NCBI GenBank assembly: GCA_027063785.1
Contig: JAMORC010000007.1
Span: 1 to 47,593, forward strand
Direction: 5' to 3'
Length of the DNA stretch: 47,593 bases
From: Desulfurobacteriaceae bacterium
GTDB lineage: Bacteria; Aquificota; Aquificia; Desulfurobacteriales; Desulfurobacteriaceae
Part shown: positions 12,889 through 39,548 of the stretch, piece by piece
Layout of the letters: each line of letters begins with the position of its first letter
Position numbering within the stretch: the first letter of the stretch is position 1
Position numbers and translations under genes: made by a program
The notes under the pieces: model-generated
What the model was told of the DNA's origin: nothing
What the model saw: the letters and a program-made list of their open reading frames with translations, nothing else
The model's database searches: none

Positions 12889-14829
12889 CTAAATGACGAT
12901 TTCCGGTTTTCCAAAAAGGTAACCCTGACCATAGTCAACGTCCAAGTATTGGAGGTGTTTAAGTATTTCCTCGTTTTCTACAAATTCAGCAATCGTTTCT
13001 ATTTCCATTGCGTGGGCCATACTGTTTATACTCTTTATTACGGCGACAGCCTTTTTTCTGTTATCTGTAGAGAGGAGTTTAACGTAACTCCCGTCTATTT
13101 TAAGATATTTAATGGGGATTTTCTCGACTAAGTTTATGAGCTGGGAGAATGAAGAGTAACCAGTTCCGAAATCGTCAATCGATATGGGAATTTCAAGGTC
13201 TTTAAAGAATTCCTTTAATACGCGGAGGTCTTCTATTATTGCCTGTTCTGTGATTTCAAAACCGAATTTCAGTTTCGAACTTATGAGCACCTCGGTTATC
13301 TCTCTGATTTCCTTTACAGCTCTCGGTACTTTGAAAGTTGCCGGACTTATGTTTATAAAGATGAACTTATCGCGGAAAATATTTAAGTTTTCCTTTATTT
13401 TCTTCATTACTGCAAGATCAAGTTCGTAAATTATTCTAAGCTCATAAAGGTAATCAATTATTTTATATGCTGGGATAATTTCTCCTTTCTCGTCTCTGAT
13501 CCTGAAAAGAACCTCGTAGTGTTTAATTTCGTTGCTCTTGACTTCTCTGATTTCCTGTAGGGCAAGGTGTATCTCCCCGCTTTTAATCTTTTTGAGAAGA
13601 TCTCCAACGATGCTCTTGAATACGATGATATTCCTTGCAACCTCTGAGCTTTTAAGGTCTATGATGAGTAGTCCTTGCCTTTCTTTGCTCTTTTTTGAGG
13701 CAAAGGTAATGACATCGGCAAGCTCTTCCTTTGAAACTTTAACGTCCGGATGGAGTCTTATGAGGAAGCCGCTTATGTCTACCTTAGCTGGGAAGTTTTC
13801 GTAACGTTCTTGAAGCTCTTTTCTGAGCTTTCGGAAGACGACTTCATAGTCAAGGCTATTCTTCTCAACAACTGTACAGAGGACTCCTGTTGTGCACTTA
13901 ACTGTTCCGTAAACAGCATTTTTTGGAAGGAGTTCTCCCAGTTTTTTCTCTAAAAAGGTAAATATTTCATCCCCTATCTGATAACCAAAGGTTTTGTTTA
14001 TAAAGGAAAGGTCGGTTGGATCTATAACGAAGAGAGAAGCCTTTCCTTTTAAATCCTCAAGTATGAAAGAAACAACGTCCTTTAGGTCTATGTTTTTCCT
14101 CGTAGTATTAATGTTTCTGACGGTTGTTGATAATTTTTCCAGGAGGAAAAATATAGAAACAAGAAGTAAGTAGGCGGAAAGGAATTTACCCTGAAGCACA
14201 TATTTGCCAAATGTTGAGAGATGAAGGTGTATTAGGTTATGGATTCTCTCAACTTCTTCACAAATCTGAAGTTTTTTACAGCCTATTTTAAAGGCTATTT
14301 CATCTGTTATTTGCTTTAAAGGACACTCCTCAACGTCAAGTTTAGTATTTTCCCCGTTTATGATTTCTCTTATCCTTGAAAAGTGATACTTGAAGGCTTT
14401 CCTTACCTCTTCCTCGGGTATTGCTTTAAGGAGTTCTTCTTTCTTTTCTATGGATTCCTTTATATATGCATAAGCTATGATGTTGGGTATTTCCCTGAAT
14501 ATTTCTATAAATTCCTCAGACAACTTAAAAGGAAGTTTTTCATCGTGGATGTACCTGAGTACCTCATAAGTTATTGCGTTTATCGCATCAACGACAAAAG
14601 CAATGCTCACTTCCTTCCTGTAAAGGTTGACCCCCAGCTGAATAAGCATTTCCTTAAATTTCTCTTTCTCTTTGTAAAAGCTTTCAACTAAGGAGTTAAA
14701 CCAAAAGTTGGCATTTCTGCAGAATTCCTTTACATCTCCTATTTGGAGTATCCTTATGACCTCTTCGGGGAGCGATTCTATGTACTTTTCGCAAAACGTT
14801 GTAAATAGCCCGGTGTACTCCTTAATCAT
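12889..14829 (-). CDS. EAL-domain protein with degenerate GGDEF, probable c-di-GMP phosphodiesterase
   Basis: The 646-residue protein has three parts. The first 250 residues are helical with a Cys/His-containing stretch (EECPLKQ..., IHNLIHLHL) and one hydrophobic helix near 220; I do not recognise the family. Residues about 250-385 align with a GGDEF fold (LFVIDPTDLSFINKTFGYQIGDE), but the GGDEF loop is replaced by KCTTGVLC, so it cannot be a cyclase. Residues about 395-646 form an EAL domain with the expected catalytic residues: the Glu in YEVLFRI, FINIS, EITEQ, DDFGTGYSS, KIDGSYV, AEFVE and GQGYLFGKP. It should hydrolyse c-di-GMP. The N-terminal part may receive a signal. Confidence 0.88.
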   Translation of the reverse strand: MIKEYTGLFTTFCEKYIESLPEEVIRILQIGDVKEFCRNANFWFNSLVESFYKEKEKFKEMLIQLGVNLYRKEVSIAFVVDAINAITYEVLRYIHDEKLPFKLSEEFIEIFREIPNIIAYAYIKESIEKKEELLKAIPEEEVRKAFKYHFSRIREIINGENTKLDVEECPLKQITDEIAFKIGCKKLQICEEVERIHNLIHLHLSTFGKYVLQGKFLSAYLLLVSIFFLLEKLSTTVRNINTTRKNIDLKDVVSFILEDLKGKASLFVIDPTDLSFINKTFGYQIGDEIFTFLEKKLGELLPKNAVYGTVKCTTGVLCTVVEKNSLDYEVVFRKLRKELQERYENFPAKVDISGFLIRLHPDVKVSKEELADVITFASKKSKERQGLLIIDLKSSEVARNIIVFKSIVGDLLKKIKSGEIHLALQEIREVKSNEIKHYEVLFRIRDEKGEIIPAYKIIDYLYELRIIYELDLAVMKKIKENLNIFRDKFIFINISPATFKVPRAVKEIREITEVLISSKLKFGFEITEQAIIEDLRVLKEFFKDLEIPISIDDFGTGYSSFSQLINLVEKIPIKYLKIDGSYVKLLSTDNRKKAVAVIKSINSMAHAMEIETIAEFVENEEILKHLQYLDVDYGQGYLFGKPEIVI

Positions 14830-14923: not shown

Positions 14924-14952
14924 ATTTGTTAGCAAATTGCGAAGGACGTGAA

Positions 14953-15864
14953 ATGGAAAAGCTGAAACTATTTGATCTTGAGGACTTTACTCTCAGGATC
15001 CCGAGGGCTAAGAAAAGGCTTATAGCCTTTGGGTGGTACGGAGGGAAGTTTTCACACTTAAACTGGATATTACCCCTTTTACCTTATACTCCTCAGTATT
15101 GTGAGCCTTTCGGGGGATCTGCGGCTATTCTTATAAATAGGCTTCCCGTTCCTGTAGAGACCTATAATGATCTGGATGGTGAGGTAGTTAATTTCTTTAG
15201 GGTCCTCAGAGATAAAACTGAAGAGTTAATAAAAGCCATATCCTTAACACCCTTCTCACGGGAAGAATTTAGAAAAGCAATAGAAGAACCGGTTGATGAA
15301 CTATCCGACGTTGAGAGAGCAAGGAGGTTCTACATAAGGGCCAGACAGGTTAGGACGGGACTTGCACAGACGGCAACTCCGGGTAGGTGGGCGTACTGTG
15401 TTAAGGCAAAGAGTAGTAGAAGGGGAATGGCCGGAGCTGTTTCGAGGTGGCTTGGAGGGATAGAGGATTTAGAGCTTATAGCTCAAAGGCTTCTAAGAGT
15501 TCAGATTGAAAATGATAGTGCCTTTGAGGTGATAAAGAGGTATGATGATGAAGATACTCTCTTTTACTGCGATCCGCCGTACCCCCATCAGTCAAGGAAA
15601 GATAAGAATGCTTATGCTTATGAAATGACCGATGAGGAGCATATTGAGCTGGCGAGACTGCTTCATTCCGTAAAGGGGAGGGTAGCCATATCCGGTTACC
15701 ACTGTGAACTTATGGATGAACTTTACAAGGATTGGTACTGCGTTGAGGCTCCTGTAAAGCGGTGTCACAGCAGTAAGAACCTGAGGAGAGAAGTTCTTTG
15801 GCTCAACTACGATCCTCGGGAGGTGTTGGAAGGAAACTTAGACTATGGGCTTAAAGCTAGATAA
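14953..15864 (+). CDS. D12-class N6-adenine DNA methyltransferase
   Basis: The product is 303 residues from ATG 14953, chosen because AAGGA lies six bases upstream. Order of motifs fits the Dam/D12 (alpha) class: FGWYGGK near 24-30 (motif X), EPFGGSAA near 53-60 (AdoMet-binding motif I), YNDLDGEVVNFF (motif II), and the catalytic DPPYPHQ (motif IV) near 212. It should methylate adenine in a short site, often GATC-like in this class, though the target cannot be read. The following gene overlaps it by 20 bases and looks like a nuclease, so this is probably the protective half of a type II system rather than an orphan Dam. Confidence 0.9.
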   Translation: MEKLKLFDLEDFTLRIPRAKKRLIAFGWYGGKFSHLNWILPLLPYTPQYCEPFGGSAAILINRLPVPVETYNDLDGEVVNFFRVLRDKTEELIKAISLTPFSREEFRKAIEEPVDELSDVERARRFYIRARQVRTGLAQTATPGRWAYCVKAKSSRRGMAGAVSRWLGGIEDLELIAQRLLRVQIENDSAFEVIKRYDDEDTLFYCDPPYPHQSRKDKNAYAYEMTDEEHIELARLLHSVKGRVAISGYHCELMDELYKDWYCVEAPVKRCHSSKNLRREVLWLNYDPREVLEGNLDYGLKAR

Positions 15865-16981
15865 GAACCTGAAGACAAATTGTATAGAAATTTTAGAACG
15901 GCTTTATTCATATGCCGAGACTTCCAAACTTTCTTTAAATCTTTCGGAAGAAGTAGAGAGGAACTTAGATATCCTTGTTCACAGCAATGTAGGAGCGCCT
16001 GTGCGTGTTCTTATAGCCCTTCTCTTAGCAAAGTTAATTGATCCTGAAGTTAATATTCTCTATCCCGTTGCAAGAGGTGTGAAAGAAAAGGGGGCTTTTT
16101 CGGGAAGAAAGGTTGACGAAAATTGTGTGCAAGTTTTAGTAAGCCGGTATAAATTGCCGCTAATACGTACTACAGGTTTTCTGACTCCGGCTTTTAGAAC
16201 TCTTTCGCTTCCGATACCTGAGAAACTCGGAGAAGTCGTAGGTAAAAATAAGCAGGTTTACAACGCCTTTTCTTCAATAGTTCACAAGGTTCATTATGGA
16301 GAATTACGGGCATATGATGTCCTTTTGGCGTTACTACAAAGGTTAATACTCCTAAAAAGAAGGCGAGAGGAGTTACTCAGTGAAAGGCTTCAGAACCTTG
16401 AGGGGCTTGCCGTTTCGGTAGAAGATATAGTCGCAGTTCTAAAGCAGTTGCTTACACTTCCGAGGGCAAGCCGGATTCCCGTTCTTATTACGGCAGCTCT
16501 GCACAAGACGATCGAGGCTTGTCTTGGGTATAGGGTAAAACCGCTTGAAAGTCATACGGCGGCTGATAGTAAAACCGGGAATTTAGGAGATGTAGAACTA
16601 GTTTTAGATGACGGTTCTGTGGTTAAAGTTTACGAAATTAAAAGCAAAAAGGTAACAGAAGCAGATATTTACATCGCTCTTAGGAAGATATCTGCCTTAG
16701 ATGAACAAGAAAGAAAAAAATTAAAGCAGTATCTCTTCATAACAACAGAGCAGACTGAGGAGTCTGTTTTATTAGAGACCCGTAAGGTGTATAAAAAGAC
16801 AGGTATTGAGATGGCAATTCTTGACTGTATTGATTTTGTACGCTACTTCCTTCATTTGTTTTTCCCGCTTAGGGGGAAGTTTGTTGAAAACCTGACACAG
16901 TTAATTGTTGCAGAGCCGGATAGCGCGGTGAGTTATAAAATTAAAGAACATTACTTAAATTTGCTTAAAGAGGGTATGTAG
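15845..16981 (+). CDS. Probable type II restriction endonuclease (PD-(D/E)XK, SacI-like)
   Basis: The 378-residue protein is paired with the methylase and overlaps it by 20 bases. Near residues 250-275 it has GDVELVLDDGSVVKVYEIKSKK, fitting the PD-(D/E)XK pattern with Asp, then Glu-Ile-Lys. The segment GAFSGRKVDENCVQVLV followed by TGFLTPAFR (about 85-121) resembles a conserved block I associate with SacI-family enzymes; that family assignment is from memory and tentative. SacI itself pairs with a cytosine methylase, so the adenine methylase here points to a different specificity. No frameshift or stop suggests decay. Confidence 0.7.
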   Translation: MGLKLDKNLKTNCIEILERLYSYAETSKLSLNLSEEVERNLDILVHSNVGAPVRVLIALLLAKLIDPEVNILYPVARGVKEKGAFSGRKVDENCVQVLVSRYKLPLIRTTGFLTPAFRTLSLPIPEKLGEVVGKNKQVYNAFSSIVHKVHYGELRAYDVLLALLQRLILLKRRREELLSERLQNLEGLAVSVEDIVAVLKQLLTLPRASRIPVLITAALHKTIEACLGYRVKPLESHTAADSKTGNLGDVELVLDDGSVVKVYEIKSKKVTEADIYIALRKISALDEQERKKLKQYLFITTEQTEESVLLETRKVYKKTGIEMAILDCIDFVRYFLHLFFPLRGKFVENLTQLIVAEPDSAVSYKIKEHYLNLLKEGM

Positions 16982-21201: not shown

Positions 21202-22176
21202 ATGAGGATCTTTAAACCTTTTGAAGTTATAAAGAAAGAGCTTGAACTTGCGGAAGCATTTTCGAGAAAGCTTCTCTCTTCAAAGGTGGAGCTTGTTCTC
21301 CGGGCAGGTGGCTATATTCTCGATAGCGGCGGAAAGCGCGTGAGGCCCGGACTTACGATAATAGCCGGGAAGCTCTTTTCGGCTCCGGAGGAGCGTCTCA
21401 TTCCCGTTGCAACGGTTATGGAGTACATGCATACGGCGACCCTTCTGCACGATGATATAGTAGACGGGGCAAAGCTCAGGAGGGGAAGGCCTTCCGCAAA
21501 TGAGGTTTTCGGAAACGACGTTGCCGTGCTTGTAGGTGACTACATGTTCGCAAAAGCCATTTACGTTCTTGCGGTGTACGGGGGAGAAGAGGTTCTTAAA
21601 ATTGCCGCTAAGACGGTTCAGGACATGGCTGAGGGGGAACTTTTTCAGCTTGAAAAAATAGGAGATGTGAGGCTTACGGAAGATGAGTACTTTGACATCA
21701 TCTACAGGAAAACTGCTTCCCTCCTTGCCACCTGTTGCGAGTGCGGTGCAGTTGTCGGTGGAGCGGGGAAAGAAGAAAGGAAGGCGTTGAGGGACTACGG
21801 TACTTACATCGGCTATGCCTTTCAGTTAGTCGACGATGCTTTCGATTACGTTTCTGATACTGAAACCATAGGTAAGCCGGCGGGAAACGATATAAGGGAA
21901 GGTAAGGTAACCTATCCTCTCCTTTCGGTTCTACGAGAAGCATCTGAGGAAGAAGTTAGCTCCGTGGCTTCTGTCCTTTCCTCGCCGCAGCCGACAAAGG
22001 AACAGGTGGAATTTGTTAGGGAATTCGTATTGAGCAGGGGAGGGGATAAAAAAACTCTATCCCTTGCAAGGGAGTATGTCGATCGGGCTAAAGTTTCTCT
22101 GTCTGTGTTTGAGGATACCCCTTTCAAAAAAGCTCTTGAAGAGATTGCCGATTTTATAGTGGAAAGAACTTATTAG
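21202..22176 (+). CDS. Long-chain trans-polyprenyl diphosphate synthase
   Basis: The 324-residue protein has both aspartate-rich motifs: LLHDDIVDGAKLRRGRP (first, about 78-94) and QLVDDAFDYVSD (second, about 208-219), plus GGKRVRP near 37 and GDYMFAKA near 112. It condenses isopentenyl diphosphate into the side chain of menaquinone or a related quinone. The residue five before the first motif is small (Ala/Thr region), consistent with a long product. UbiE and UbiD elsewhere in the window would act on the same quinone pathway. The start codon has only a weak site and may be translated by coupling to pyrE. Confidence 0.92.
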   Translation: MRIFKPFEVIKKELELAEAFSRKLLSSKVELVLRAGGYILDSGGKRVRPGLTIIAGKLFSAPEERLIPVATVMEYMHTATLLHDDIVDGAKLRRGRPSANEVFGNDVAVLVGDYMFAKAIYVLAVYGGEEVLKIAAKTVQDMAEGELFQLEKIGDVRLTEDEYFDIIYRKTASLLATCCECGAVVGGAGKEERKALRDYGTYIGYAFQLVDDAFDYVSDTETIGKPAGNDIREGKVTYPLLSVLREASEEEVSSVASVLSSPQPTKEQVEFVREFVLSRGGDKKTLSLAREYVDRAKVSLSVFEDTPFKKALEEIADFIVERTY

Positions 22177-22189
22177 AGGATATAGAAGA

Positions 22190-23857
22190 ATGGTTACCTA
22201 TGACCTTTCCGAGCCTTTGGAGCTTGCCGAGGATGTATTCTGGGTGGGTTACGTTGTTCCTAACGATCCCTTTCAGTGTCACGTTTACCTCATAAGGAAC
22301 GGGGAAGAGAGCATACTCATTGATCCGGGAAGTATGATAACTTTCCCCGTTGTTCTTGAGAAAATTTTGAAACTCGTCAGCTTGAGGGATATAAAATATA
22401 TCATTTTCCACCATCAAGACCCGGATATAACGGGATGTTACTCAACGCTTGAAGAGCTGTTCCCGAATACGACAAAGCTCAGGTACGCTGTTACCCACTG
22501 GAGGACGAAGACCCTGCTAAAGCACTATAAGTGGAAAACGCCGTTCTACTTGGTTGATAAAAATGACTGGAAGCTGGAAGCCGGAGATAGGACGCTGGAG
22601 TTTGTCTTCACTCCCTATGCCCACTTTCCCGGGGCTTTCTGCACTTACGATAGGCGTTCGGGTATCCTCTTTTCAAGTGATATTTTCGGAGCTATTTCGA
22701 AAAAGTTTTACCTTTTTGCCGTTGATGAGGAAGAGTACTATCAGGGAGTGGAGCTTTTCCACAAGCATTACATGCCGAGCAGTGCGATACTTAACTATGC
22801 CCTTGACAGGATAATGGAGAAAAACCCCCGGATGATTGCTCCCCAGCACGGTAGCATAATAAAGGAAGAAATGATTCTTCCTGTTGTTAACAGGCTGAGG
22901 AAGCTCGACTGCGGGCTTTACCTTCTGGACAGGGAAAATACCGACATTTACCTGCTGAATAAGGTTGATTCCATCCTGAAGAAACTTATGAAAAGCATAA
23001 TAGCTTCCAGCGATTTCAGAGTGGTTCTCCGGAATCTATTTTCCACTTTAAAGTCGGAGATTCCGGAGCTGAGCAAGTTTTACTTGCTTACGCAGTTTTT
23101 TACGGATAAAAAGAGGTTCCTTATTGAAGTTGACAGTGAAAACGTCAATCTCAAGTTTGTCCCGGAGAGTTACGGACTTTCGGGGTTTATTTTCAGTGAA
23201 AAACTGGAAACGGAATCCCAAGAAATAGGTAACATTTACCTTTTCTCTTCAAAACCTTTAAACAGAGGTCAGCTGAAGTTCTTGGAAATTCTGTTTAACC
23301 ACGTCAAGTATCCTCTCTCTGCAAGCCTTGAGAGAGAGTTTCAGCTGGAACTTTTAAAGAGGAAAGAGAAAATACTTGAGGAAAAGGCCGTCAGGGATCC
23401 CCTTACCGGCCTATACAACAGGTACTTCCTCAAGGAGTGTTTAAAGTCCTGTGATGAACTTCCCGTATCCTTGATAATGTTTGATATAGACCACTTCAAG
23501 CGAATAAACGATACCTACGGTCATGAGATCGGTGACTGTGTTCTTAAGGAATTTGCCAAGATACTCAGGAAGAGCTTCCGCTCTTCCGACTGCGTAATTC
23601 GCTACGGCGGAGAAGAATTTCTCGTAGTCCTCAAGCACTGTGACCTGGCTCAAGCCTGTGAGAAGGCGGAAGAGGTCAGGAGGAAAGTAGAAAATACCGA
23701 GTTCTGCAAGGAGAAAGGTCTTTCCTTAAAAGTTACTGTTAGTGCCGGTGTCCGCCAGGTTTCGAGCATTGATTCCTTCAAAGAGGAAATAGACAAAGCA
23801 GACAGGAACCTCTATGCAGCGAAGAACGCGGGAAGGAACAGGGTAGTCTGCGGTTAA
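22190..23857 (+). CDS. Diiron MBL-fold (ODP/FprA-like) sensor fused to diguanylate cyclase
   Basis: The 555-residue protein joins a metallo-beta-lactamase domain (about 5-235) to a middle region (about 250-385) and a C-terminal GGDEF domain (about 395-555). The first domain has flavodiiron-type ligands: His75, Asp77 and Asp79 in HHQDPDI, His145 in AHFPGAF, Asp164 in FSSDIFGA, and His220 in APQHGS. This resembles oxygen-binding diiron proteins and FprA without the flavodoxin part. The cyclase has DPLTGLYNR, a GGEEF active site (473-477) and an RSSD inhibitory site five residues upstream, so it should make c-di-GMP with product feedback. The likely input is O2 or NO. It follows a prenyl synthase by 13 bases. 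Confidence 0.87.
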   Translation: MVTYDLSEPLELAEDVFWVGYVVPNDPFQCHVYLIRNGEESILIDPGSMITFPVVLEKILKLVSLRDIKYIIFHHQDPDITGCYSTLEELFPNTTKLRYAVTHWRTKTLLKHYKWKTPFYLVDKNDWKLEAGDRTLEFVFTPYAHFPGAFCTYDRRSGILFSSDIFGAISKKFYLFAVDEEEYYQGVELFHKHYMPSSAILNYALDRIMEKNPRMIAPQHGSIIKEEMILPVVNRLRKLDCGLYLLDRENTDIYLLNKVDSILKKLMKSIIASSDFRVVLRNLFSTLKSEIPELSKFYLLTQFFTDKKRFLIEVDSENVNLKFVPESYGLSGFIFSEKLETESQEIGNIYLFSSKPLNRGQLKFLEILFNHVKYPLSASLEREFQLELLKRKEKILEEKAVRDPLTGLYNRYFLKECLKSCDELPVSLIMFDIDHFKRINDTYGHEIGDCVLKEFAKILRKSFRSSDCVIRYGGEEFLVVLKHCDLAQACEKAEEVRRKVENTEFCKEKGLSLKVTVSAGVRQVSSIDSFKEEIDKADRNLYAAKNAGRNRVVCG

Positions 23858-28418: not shown

Positions 28419-29651
28419 TTAGAACCTTCCGGAACCGTGGGAATGGCAGGTTGTACATGTTGCGGTTGCATTTCCATGGTTTTCGATATCTATGGGTAGC
28501 CCGAGCCCGTTTATCGGAGAGTAATCGATAATTCCGTCATGGCAGGCGGCGCATAAAGAGGACATATGGAATCTTTCCTCTCGAACCGTTCCGTTTTCGG
28601 CGGTTTCAATCGGAAGGGATGTGTAGTCGCGGAAATCGGTCGGGTTTTCGAGATCATAAGTTCTATTCTCTGCCTCAATAATTCCCGAGAACTTAAGGTC
28701 TTTAAAGTACTTTATTGACATAGGATCTATGAGGGCATACTTCGTTGATTCTGTATTGTCCACCTGCGTAATAGCTTTCCTTACAAGAAGGGTTTCTCCG
28801 ACCTTTTCGATTATGAGCTTGTCGTTATTTGATGCGTGGGGGTTGTGGCATTGACTGCATTCCAGGGCTTCGTGTTCTGTGTGGAAGAGGCTTTGCCCCG
28901 GGAGGTTTACATCTTTAAATGTTCTGTCTCCAGACTTATACTCCTGCTTTCCGTGGAAGTCGTCGTTATTCCAGTGAGTTGTAATATCTGAAGGGTTTTC
29001 AGGTGGAGTAATCTTGGTGTCTTCCCTGCCGTCGCCGTTGGTATCCGCAAGCTCCTTACCCTTTAGGGAATTCCAGTTGTTTGAGTGGCAGGTCAAACAC
29101 AGGTCGGCGGTGCTCCTCGGCCTGAAACCGCCTATCGGGGCAAGGTCGGTGTCCGTTTCAACGATTCCGTCCATATCGGGCTGCCAGTGGCAGACGGTGC
29201 AGTCAAAGTCGTCGATTTTTCCGTTGTTGTTAAAGTCGTGAAGGGAGGCTTTCCTGCCGGAGGTTCCTTTATAGTAGTGAACCTTTTCAAATTGGTCGTG
29301 GCAAACTGTGCACCTTCTGTTAACTCCGCTTACTCCGTTTGTTCCGTGGCAGGCGGAGCATACCTCTATAACATTTGACGATCCTCTTGATCCCAATGCC
29401 CGTTCTATTAAATCCTGGTATTTGTCGGGAGGAGTGTTGGGAGTTCCCATCGTATGCTTGAAATTCTGGTGACAGCCCAGGCAGTTATCCTTTCCCCAGC
29501 CGTCGGAGTGGTTGCTTTTTGTAAGGTACGTTGCACCCCTCTTTGCAAAGTCTGTACCGAAATCGGAATAGTGAGGATCGGGGTCTCCCAGACCTCCTCC
29601 GCAACCTGAGATTATCAGCAGTCCTCCGGCCAGAATCAGGAACCTTTTCAC
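28419..29651 (-). CDS. Octaheme c-type cytochrome lipoprotein
   Basis: From GTG 29651 (GGGAGG six bases upstream) the product is 410 residues and begins with a lipoprotein signal, LAGGLLIISGCGGG. A TTG 18 bases earlier is in frame but lacks a site. Eight CXXCH haem-binding motifs are visible: CLGCH, CSACH, CTVCH, CTVCH, CLTCH, CSQCH, CAACH and CTTCH. There are also two calcium-loop-like segments, DFNNNGKIDDFD directly before the fourth motif and DTNGDGRED after the fifth. It should be anchored in a membrane and carry electrons in the periplasm or at the surface. I do not recognise a catalytic family; its partner reductase is not in the window. Confidence 0.9.
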   Translation of the reverse strand: MKRFLILAGGLLIISGCGGGLGDPDPHYSDFGTDFAKRGATYLTKSNHSDGWGKDNCLGCHQNFKHTMGTPNTPPDKYQDLIERALGSRGSSNVIEVCSACHGTNGVSGVNRRCTVCHDQFEKVHYYKGTSGRKASLHDFNNNGKIDDFDCTVCHWQPDMDGIVETDTDLAPIGGFRPRSTADLCLTCHSNNWNSLKGKELADTNGDGREDTKITPPENPSDITTHWNNDDFHGKQEYKSGDRTFKDVNLPGQSLFHTEHEALECSQCHNPHASNNDKLIIEKVGETLLVRKAITQVDNTESTKYALIDPMSIKYFKDLKFSGIIEAENRTYDLENPTDFRDYTSLPIETAENGTVREERFHMSSLCAACHDGIIDYSPINGLGLPIDIENHGNATATCTTCHSHGSGRF

Positions 29652-29726
29652 TACAAGCCTCCCAACCAATCGGGCTTAGAATATTTTGCCTAAAATAAAC
29701 GATTTACAATCGTATTATATACAACT

Positions 29727-37815: not shown

Positions 37816-38964
37816 TTGAAAGTTAAAGTTGCCTCTTCTAAAAATCCGATACTCAGGTTAGCGTTAGAGGAGATAGCAGATAAAATAGGTTCTGATTTTG
37901 ACTTTATCATACTGGCGGTTTCTCCGAAATACCCGTTTTCGGATGTAAGCAGGGTTGCTCCTGTCATTTTTAACGTTGACTGTTCCCAGTGTATTGCATT
38001 CTCTTCGATAGATGCTTTTTCAAATACTGAAATAGTAAGTGAGGGCGTAGTTGCTACGGTTTTTAAGTTTGAAAGAAAAGGAAAGATTAAACTTTCCTAC
38101 TTTAGTGAGCTGTCAGGTTCCGGTTTTGACAGGCAGGCAAAAGAGCTTTTCAACAAGTTATCTTTTGACTGCGACTGTGTAAACGTGATACTCGGTGACT
38201 ATTCTGACGGTAAGTTCCCTTTTGTTATTCGTTCTCTCAGCACCTTGATAGAGAAAGAGGATGTGCCTGTTGAAAGGGTATGCGGGGGGATATTCTCAAC
38301 GTTCATTGAGGGAAAGAAGAAAGAAAAAGGGTATATGTCGGTTGAAGGCAGGATTATATCCGGCGGTTTTCTTGCCTTAACCTTTGAGGGTTTTGATAGC
38401 ACTATAGGGCTTTCAACGGGAGCTTTTAAGGCCGGTCCGGTTTACTCGGTTGACAGGGCATTGGGTTATGAAATTCTCTTTCTTGACGGGAAACCGGCAG
38501 GACTCCTTCCTAAGAGGATACTCTCCGGCATAGGAGAAGAGTCGGTAGAACCGCTCTGGTACACACCTCTTGTAGTGCTTAACGGTGACGGACAGCCGGT
38601 TGCCTTAAGGACTTTTAAGTCCTTTACCGAAACTTCCATAGAAGTTTGGGCTCCTGTTGAGAGCGGGGTAAAGGTTAAGCTTTCTCTGGTTGTGGTTGAA
38701 GAGATACTTAAAGATACTGAATTCGTTGCAAGAAGAGTTAAAGAAAAAATAGGTTTTGCTGACGTTTGTTTTGACTTTTCCTGTGCTGCCAGACAGGTTA
38801 CTCTTGAAGATAAAGCTCAGGAAGAGCTAATAATTTACGGAAGGGAGATAGACGCTCCTCTCTTCGGCTTCTTTACCCACGGGGAGATAGCTCCCGACTT
38901 GTCGGGTAGAAGGTTAGAACTTCACAATCAAACTTCCGTATGTCTTGTGATGAGGGAACTATGA
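37816..38964 (+). CDS. FIST-domain sensory protein
   Basis: The 382-residue protein has the two-part FIST layout. The N-terminal half includes VCGGIFSTF and GGFLALTFEG, and the C-terminal half ends with the typical FGFFTHGEIAPDLSGRRLELHNQTSVCLV (about 350-378). FIST domains are thought to bind small ligands such as amino acids and are often linked to signalling output domains. Here the output domain is a separate protein: the GGDEF gene starts inside the FIST stop (ATGA). The start codon is TTG with CGGAGG eight bases upstream. Confidence 0.85.
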   Translation: MKVKVASSKNPILRLALEEIADKIGSDFDFIILAVSPKYPFSDVSRVAPVIFNVDCSQCIAFSSIDAFSNTEIVSEGVVATVFKFERKGKIKLSYFSELSGSGFDRQAKELFNKLSFDCDCVNVILGDYSDGKFPFVIRSLSTLIEKEDVPVERVCGGIFSTFIEGKKKEKGYMSVEGRIISGGFLALTFEGFDSTIGLSTGAFKAGPVYSVDRALGYEILFLDGKPAGLLPKRILSGIGEESVEPLWYTPLVVLNGDGQPVALRTFKSFTETSIEVWAPVESGVKVKLSLVVVEEILKDTEFVARRVKEKIGFADVCFDFSCAARQVTLEDKAQEELIIYGREIDAPLFGFFTHGEIAPDLSGRRLELHNQTSVCLVMREL

Positions 38965-39548
38965 AGGAAGACGTTAAGATAACCATTTTTTTTAACTATT
39001 TAGAAGAGTTGACAAGAAAGTATAACGAGGTATTTGAGCTGAAAGAGAAGCTTCTCAAGGAGCTTCAAGAACGGGCAATGTACGACTACCTCACCGGTCT
39101 CTATAACAGGCACGTTCTTATAGAGCTTCTTGAGAAAGAAATAGAGAGAGTGAAAAGGGAGGGAGAAGAAAGAGTTTTTGTTGTTTTCCTTGATCTTGAT
39201 AACTTCAAGAAAGTTAACGATATCTACGGTCATGAAAAGGGGGATGAAGTCTTAAAAGAAGTAGCGAAAATTCTTAGGGAAAGTTTTAGGAAATACGATA
39301 TCGTTTCAAGGTTTGGAGGGGACGAGTTTGTTGCTTTAGTTCCCACTAAGGAGGGGGATAAAGATCAGTTACTCGCACGTTTGGTTGAAATTGAAAGGCG
39401 GATTGAAGAAGCTTTTTCCGATTTTGGTATTTCCATTAGTTACGGTATTGCCGTTGCTCCGGATGAGGGTGTTAACGTTAGCGAACTTATAAATCTGTCT
39501 GACAAAAGAATGTACATGATGAAGGAAAAGAAAAAGAAGAGAAAGTGA
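38961..39548 (+). CDS. Diguanylate cyclase (stand-alone GGDEF)
   Basis: From ATG 38961, which overlaps the FIST stop, the product is 195 residues. A short helical leader (about 1-35) precedes a GGDEF domain with YDYLTGLYNRH, FLDLDNFKKVNDIYGHEKGDEVL and an intact FGGDEF site. An RKYD inhibitory site lies five residues before it. It should make c-di-GMP with product feedback. An upstream in-frame ATG at 38940 would add seven residues. With almost no sensor part of its own, it probably takes its signal from the adjacent FIST protein. The C-terminus is a run of Lys and Arg. Confidence 0.92.
   Translation: MKEDVKITIFFNYLEELTRKYNEVFELKEKLLKELQERAMYDYLTGLYNRHVLIELLEKEIERVKREGEERVFVVFLDLDNFKKVNDIYGHEKGDEVLKEVAKILRESFRKYDIVSRFGGDEFVALVPTKEGDKDQLLARLVEIERRIEEAFSDFGISISYGIAVAPDEGVNVSELINLSDKRMYMMKEKKKKRK

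Follow-up and report, generated by a model that had tools for sequence, protein, structure and literature searches.

We analysed a window of 47,593 nucleotides (contig JAMORC010000007.1, assembly GCA_027063785.1, from a hot-vent Desulfurobacteriaceae bacterium; the window is this whole stretch of DNA), in which one gene encodes, in order, an N-terminal ODP domain, a GAF-like middle domain, a long helix and a C-terminal GGDEF domain. The gene, its upstream neighbor and the features within it are as follows.

21202..22176, + strand: polyprenyl synthetase gene, ending 13 nt upstream of the fusion gene
22190..23857, + strand: ODP/GAF-like/GGDEF fusion gene, 555 aa (single ORF, ATG start)
22190..22915, + strand: ODP (oxygen-binding diiron, MBL-fold) sensor domain, residues 1-242 (PF19583, phmmer, Foldseek)
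22412..22426, + strand: HQDPD motif, residues 75-79, with predicted ligands H75, D77 and D79 (sequence, alignment with solved ODPs, conservation)
22622..22624, + strand: predicted ligand H145 (sequence, conservation)
22679..22681, + strand: predicted bridging-position ligand D164 (sequence, conservation)
22844..22849, + strand: Q219-H220 of motif 5 (PQHG), common to all ODPs (sequence, alignment with solved ODPs, conservation)
22937..23005, + strand: helix linking the ODP to the middle domain, residues 250-272 (AlphaFold2 models)
23015..23260, + strand: compact, fast-evolving GAF-like middle domain, residues 276-357 (AlphaFold2, Foldseek)
23264..23392, + strand: long signalling helix entering the GGDEF domain, residues 359-401 (AlphaFold2, alignment of relatives)
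23387..23842, + strand: GGDEF diguanylate cyclase domain, residues 400-551 (PF00990; PleD and DgcR alignments)
23579..23590, + strand: RSSD inhibitory (I) site, residues 464-467 (sequence, PleD/DgcR alignment)
23606..23620, + strand: GGEEF active-site motif, residues 473-477 (sequence, alignment of relatives)

An earlier note on this DNA had described a diiron-type MBL-fold sensor joined to a cyclase, and profile searches bear this out at both ends of the protein (ODP family, PF19583, E 1.4e-60; GGDEF, PF00990, E 4.4e-42). Its domain list passed over what lies between them, a GAF-like domain within residues 250-400 with flanking signalling helices. The fusion gene is likely co-transcribed with the polyprenyl synthetase gene, which also adjoins it in the closest relative (L005) and in none of the other orthologues. 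Apart from that relative, neighbors vary among orthologues, and no conserved operon partner was found. We saw no chemoreceptor (MCP) gene near the fusion gene, and a promoter and terminator scan returned a site count not above the shuffled-sequence expectation.

Cyclase and probable relay

The match to PF00990 covers all 161 of the 161 profile positions. Residues matching the PleD active site are present, with the metal-binding aspartate and the Asn, Asp, Lys and Arg residues for the substrate kept. The GGEEF and RSSD sites had been called intact, and they are, the RSSD standing five residues before the GGEEF at the spacing of a product-inhibition RxxD. D432, N440, D449, E476 and K545 are kept in 49 of 49 fused GGDEF proteins and E475 in 48, while a few relatives have lost the I-site (R in 43/49, D in 45/49). 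With its catalytic and product-inhibition residues in place, the domain is predicted to synthesize c-di-GMP from GTP.

The middle of the protein is recognizable by structure prediction; by sequence, it has no Pfam match and no meaningful sequence match in the PDB. AlphaFold2 places a weakly predicted hinge after the ODP (residues 243-251) and predicts that residues 276-357 begin with a helix and continue as a domain of five strands. A separate model of the region, built with 25 sequences, reached a pLDDT of 89.9, and Foldseek matches of this model were mainly GAF domains with probabilities of about 1.0 and marginal E-values (best 4.8e-4). The top Foldseek match of the whole-protein model was a bacteriophytochrome-regulated diguanylate cyclase. 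The GAF-like domain could carry an input of its own, but it is more likely to act as a relay and dimerization unit than as the primary sensor.

The helix that leaves this domain is exactly seven residues shorter in two separate branches of relatives (L013; L057 with L059), a one-heptad shortening that fits the expectation for a coiled-coil relay. Other lengths (35 and 36; 36 versus 37, a difference that depends on alignment gaps) are not heptad-spaced. As a general rule, a heptad-quantized linker is thus only partly seen among the relatives, and we rejected it.

An ODP-type sensor domain

Residues 28-221 match PF19583 ('ODP family beta lactamase') over its full length (profile positions 1-194 of 194), at 204.9 bits against a cut-off of 27.2. 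By phmmer, the closest solved relatives of the sensor domain are the ODPs of Thermotoga maritima (6qrq, E 1.3e-30) and Treponema denticola (6qnm, E 6.7e-25), with flavodiiron proteins far behind (E 3e-13 and weaker). The AlphaFold2 model of the whole protein (pLDDT 85) superposes on the peroxo-diiron ODP 6r9n with a TM-score of 0.83 by target length (Foldseek). Both known proteins, T. denticola ODP (TDE2498, 6qnm/6r9n) and T. maritima ODP (6qrq/6qwo), thus belong to the same family, carry the same HQDPD…H…D…PQHG set and share the fold (TM-scores by target length of 0.77-0.83).

The ligand letters proposed earlier, H75, D77, D79, H145, D164 and H220, all stand at the positions claimed. Their description as flavodiiron-type has to be revised: they form the ODP set H-x-D-x-D-(I/V)…H…D…QH rather than HxExDH. 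The local motif reads HHQDPDI here, HQDPDV in both solved ODPs and HxExDH in flavodiiron proteins, and motif 5 reads PQHG here and in the ODPs of T. maritima and T. denticola. A superfamily survey describes the metal set of T. maritima ODP as unusual, with a glutamine at motif 5 (PMC7785958), a description that Q219 of the fusion protein fits. Flavodiiron proteins such as FprA and flavorubredoxin share the MBL-fold diiron core with this ODP but, unlike the fusion protein, have HxExDH ligands and a flavodoxin/FMN domain and are enzymatic O2/NO reductases. Flavodoxin was rightly said to be missing, as the protein has no Pfam match to it; with the HxExDH motif absent as well, we ruled out a flavodiiron protein.

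The predicted ligands and Q219 are invariant in 82 of 82 fused proteins. The sensor is the most conserved part of the protein, with 87% identity to the closest relative in the ODP, 49% in the GAF-like domain, which has no invariant column among 25 sequences, and 70% in the GGDEF domain. Against every relative compared, the ODP is at least as conserved as the GGDEF domain.

Fused ODPs in other bacteria

Looking for the fusion in relatives, as the earlier note had proposed, we searched 100 related genomes and found 13 orthologous fusions at 36-71% identity, far beyond chance; one of these is truncated at a contig end. They occur in 10 of 21 genomes of the same family, in 2 of 2 of a sister family in the order, and once in a further family within the class. 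Species genomes were also scanned with the fused ODP domain as the query. The 80 best loci, a selection that favors close relatives of the query and gives no population frequencies, and in which a few loci come from genomes of the 100-genome set, comprise 50 with a GGDEF output (including one GGDEF-EAL), 19 with a histidine kinase, 4 with SpoIIE, 1 with a winged-helix-like tail, 1 stand-alone ODP and 5 cut by contig ends. By record title, these loci span about nine phyla, and many are from hydrothermal vents. The phyla include Aquificota, Campylobacterota, Acidobacteriota, Deferribacterota, Pseudomonadota, Spirochaetota and Thermodesulfobacteriota, together with Chloroflexota and Dictyoglomota from MAGs that may be misassigned. 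In viral contigs, matches were to the C-terminal part and the GGDEF domain only, and no ODP fusion was found.

Two of the less common architectures are observations in their own right. In spirochaete MAGs (L091, L092, L097 and L099; Pfam scan for L091), an ODP is joined to a SpoIIE-type phosphatase that has TPR repeats. In a Sulfurovum MAG (L109:3980-5062), an ODP with a C-terminal tail resembling a winged-helix DNA-binding domain is a candidate one-component ODP transcription factor.

Phylogenetic analysis of 98 ODP domains placed the fused ODPs in one group (support 99), distinct from the stand-alone ODPs encoded in the same bacterial family (95) and from three chemotaxis-type ODPs (99), which sit on long branches that leave the deep order unsure. 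The ODP of our fusion protein therefore belongs to another clade than the chemotaxis ODPs and has invariant residues of its own. D26, H31, S41, S48, K58, H103, T141, G167, A177, Y183 and P196 occur in 78 to 82 of 82 fused ODPs and differ in both other groups, and P142 is likewise among the fused-clade invariant positions that differ from the chemotaxis ODPs. GGDEF outputs are the most frequent on the tree, and in Campylobacterota and Spirochaetota the output has changed to histidine kinase and SpoIIE; this swapping of outputs fits a sensor role for the ODP. Organisms are mixed on the tree, indicating horizontal transfer.

Of 136 genomes of the same class, 126 have above-cut-off matches to PF19583, a profile that can also catch flavodiiron proteins. 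There are several such matches per genome, and the best of them are mostly stand-alone ORFs of about 260 aa. In the same family, stand-alone ODP genes (L018:1066-1449, L021:1080-1454, L022:2290-2676, L024 and L025) adjoin a Roadblock/LC7 gene (PF03259, E 3.7e-9 in L022), a conserved, unassigned gene of about 125 aa, or both. Such a neighbor is a possible, unreported ODP partner.

Input to the cyclase

In T. denticola, the ODP senses O2 for chemotaxis and is a protein of its own, encoded next to a soluble chemoreceptor gene, whereas the ODP studied here is part of the same polypeptide as a cyclase. ODPs 'fused with signal transduction domains' were found by Muok et al. (2019, PNAS 116:14955), as related in PMC7319448, and the protein described here, an ODP with an attached signalling domain, falls in that very class as it is characterized there. 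The novelty implied by the earlier note is accordingly reduced, as the fusion is widespread and its class, by the account in PMC7319448, is already in the literature; what stands is that our literature searches for ODP with GGDEF or flavodiiron with GGDEF, which took in Muok et al. through that same account, returned no study of an ODP cyclase and no biochemistry of any such fusion. The terms ODP, diiron and lactamase are likewise absent from a 2022 census of c-di-GMP sensory inputs (PMC8846402). From its sequence, the protein appears to be an uncharacterized but expected example of a recognized group of ODP-signalling fusions.

Other proteins offer points of comparison. DosC (DgcO), a globin-coupled cyclase whose GGDEF domain (4zve) was among the matches to the fusion protein, joins O2 input to GGDEF output, with a heme globin as the sensor. 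Vibrio cholerae Bhr-DGC, a hemerythrin-GGDEF protein, is a functional analogue in that a non-heme diiron sensor sits on a diguanylate cyclase. Its sensor has the hemerythrin four-helix fold, unrelated to MBL, and the fusion protein has no Pfam match to hemerythrin. Bhr-DGC is redox-regulated, with no O2 adduct detected, and becomes tenfold more active when diferrous (PMC9388753).

For c-di-GMP signalling, the genome has 9 GGDEF, about 5 EAL and 4 PilZ matches; it also has several CheW-domain genes. A second, stand-alone ODP (contig C21:13054-13629, L001) lies directly beside a gene for a 248-aa soluble MCP, which is how the chemotaxis ODP of Treponema is arranged. One cell thus appears to feed ODP signals to both chemotaxis and c-di-GMP. 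The genome's third PF19583 match (contig C33) is a glyoxalase-like MBL protein with HEHPDH, neither an ODP nor a flavodiiron protein, and no full flavodiiron protein was found among these matches.

The window itself carries further genes of interest. A 646-aa protein with a C-terminal EAL as its sole Pfam domain (12889-14829, - strand) is a candidate c-di-GMP phosphodiesterase. A FIST_C-domain gene (37816-38964, + strand) overlaps a short GGDEF gene (38940-39548, + strand), and with FIST/NosP proteins being candidate sensors of NO or of a ligand, the two genes could form a second sensor-cyclase pair; the NosP profile scores only 17 bits here, far below cut-off. A D12-class adenine methylase gene overlapping a SacI-like restriction endonuclease gene (14926-16981, + strand) is likely a restriction-modification pair, and a multihaem c-type cytochrome (c7/c3-like) with a lipoprotein-like N-terminus is encoded at 28419-29669 (- strand).

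We consider it probable that the fusion protein is soluble and dimeric and that an ODP-type diiron sensor gates its diguanylate cyclase. It would most likely serve as a cytoplasmic switch by which O2 (and/or Fe(II)) controls c-di-GMP synthesis. Extrapolating from chemotaxis ODPs and by analogy with Bhr-DGC, the MBL-fold domain would load two Fe(II) via H75, D77, D79, H145, D164 and H220, with Q219 nearby, and the diiron site would bind O2 as a peroxo-type adduct. The changed metal state would alter the ODP dimer, and the change would pass through the linking helix, the compact GAF-like module and the continuous signalling helix to the GGDEF pair, altering the frequency with which its two active sites come face to face. 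The c-di-GMP output, subject to product inhibition at RSSD, would then inform PilZ-type effectors of the O2 inside the cell (and of Fe(II) supply). That a gas sets c-di-GMP directly, as the earlier note suggested, may hold by the precedent of T. denticola ODP, and we lean only slightly toward O2 raising rather than lowering c-di-GMP. Because the fused ODPs are a separate clade, with many clade-invariant positions at which chemotaxis ODPs have other residues, the ligand preference of the latter may not carry over.

No sequence result separates O2, NO, Fe(II) loading or plain redox as the input. A sensor of Fe(II) or metal supply, or of general redox state, in which metal loading or the diferrous/diferric state sets the cyclase and O2 acts only as an oxidant of the site, is a somewhat unlikely reading that still deserves weight. 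Bhr-DGC, another diiron-sensor cyclase, is controlled in this way, with redox state rather than a bound ligand as the regulator (PMC9388753), and the title of Muok et al. (2019) calls T. denticola ODP an Fe(II) and oxygen sensor. Yet ODPs form a stabilized peroxo adduct, as stated in that title and in the entry title of 6r9n, and no O2 adduct was seen in Bhr-DGC.

It is improbable that the ODP is an inert, purely structural module or an O2 scavenger, with the cyclase controlled by the GAF-like domain or by expression level. GAF domains are often ligand sensors and the fusion gene is in a likely operon with a housekeeping gene, but it is the ODP and its ligands that are most conserved, whereas the GAF-like domain is compact and lacks any invariant column. 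A shade less credible still is the NO binding raised by the earlier note, by which NO at the diiron site would set cyclase activity. The fold is related to that of flavodiiron NO reductases (E about 4e-11), but the ligand set is that of ODPs (Glu to Asp, His to Ile), flavodoxin is absent, nothing in the sequence or neighborhood points to NO, and the separate FIST-GGDEF gene pair is the better NO candidate. A zinc-type metallo-hydrolase fused to the cyclase is very improbable indeed, as the general MBL profile PF00753 matches (E 2.4e-16) but the ODP profile scores 144 bits above it and HxHxDH is absent; on these grounds we rejected a zinc MBL hydrolase.

Returning to the ODP-gated cyclase, we tentatively put forward a broader possibility for the family, one we would not yet back over its negation: that the fused ODPs are a distinct, horizontally spread clade whose own invariant residues, including D26, H31, S48 and H103, confer a response to gas or iron unlike that of chemotaxis ODPs, and that in vent bacteria they are a principal direct link from O2/Fe(II) to c-di-GMP, one absent from current lists of c-di-GMP sensors. 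If O2 or iron does gate the cyclase, the covalent link between the sensor and an enzyme with a simple readout would make the protein convenient for studying how ODPs pass on their signal. The fusion would then provide a heme-free, non-hemerythrin route from oxygen to c-di-GMP, present in many hydrothermal-vent bacteria, several of them deep-branching, and could account for their choice between swimming and attachment where oxic and anoxic zones meet.
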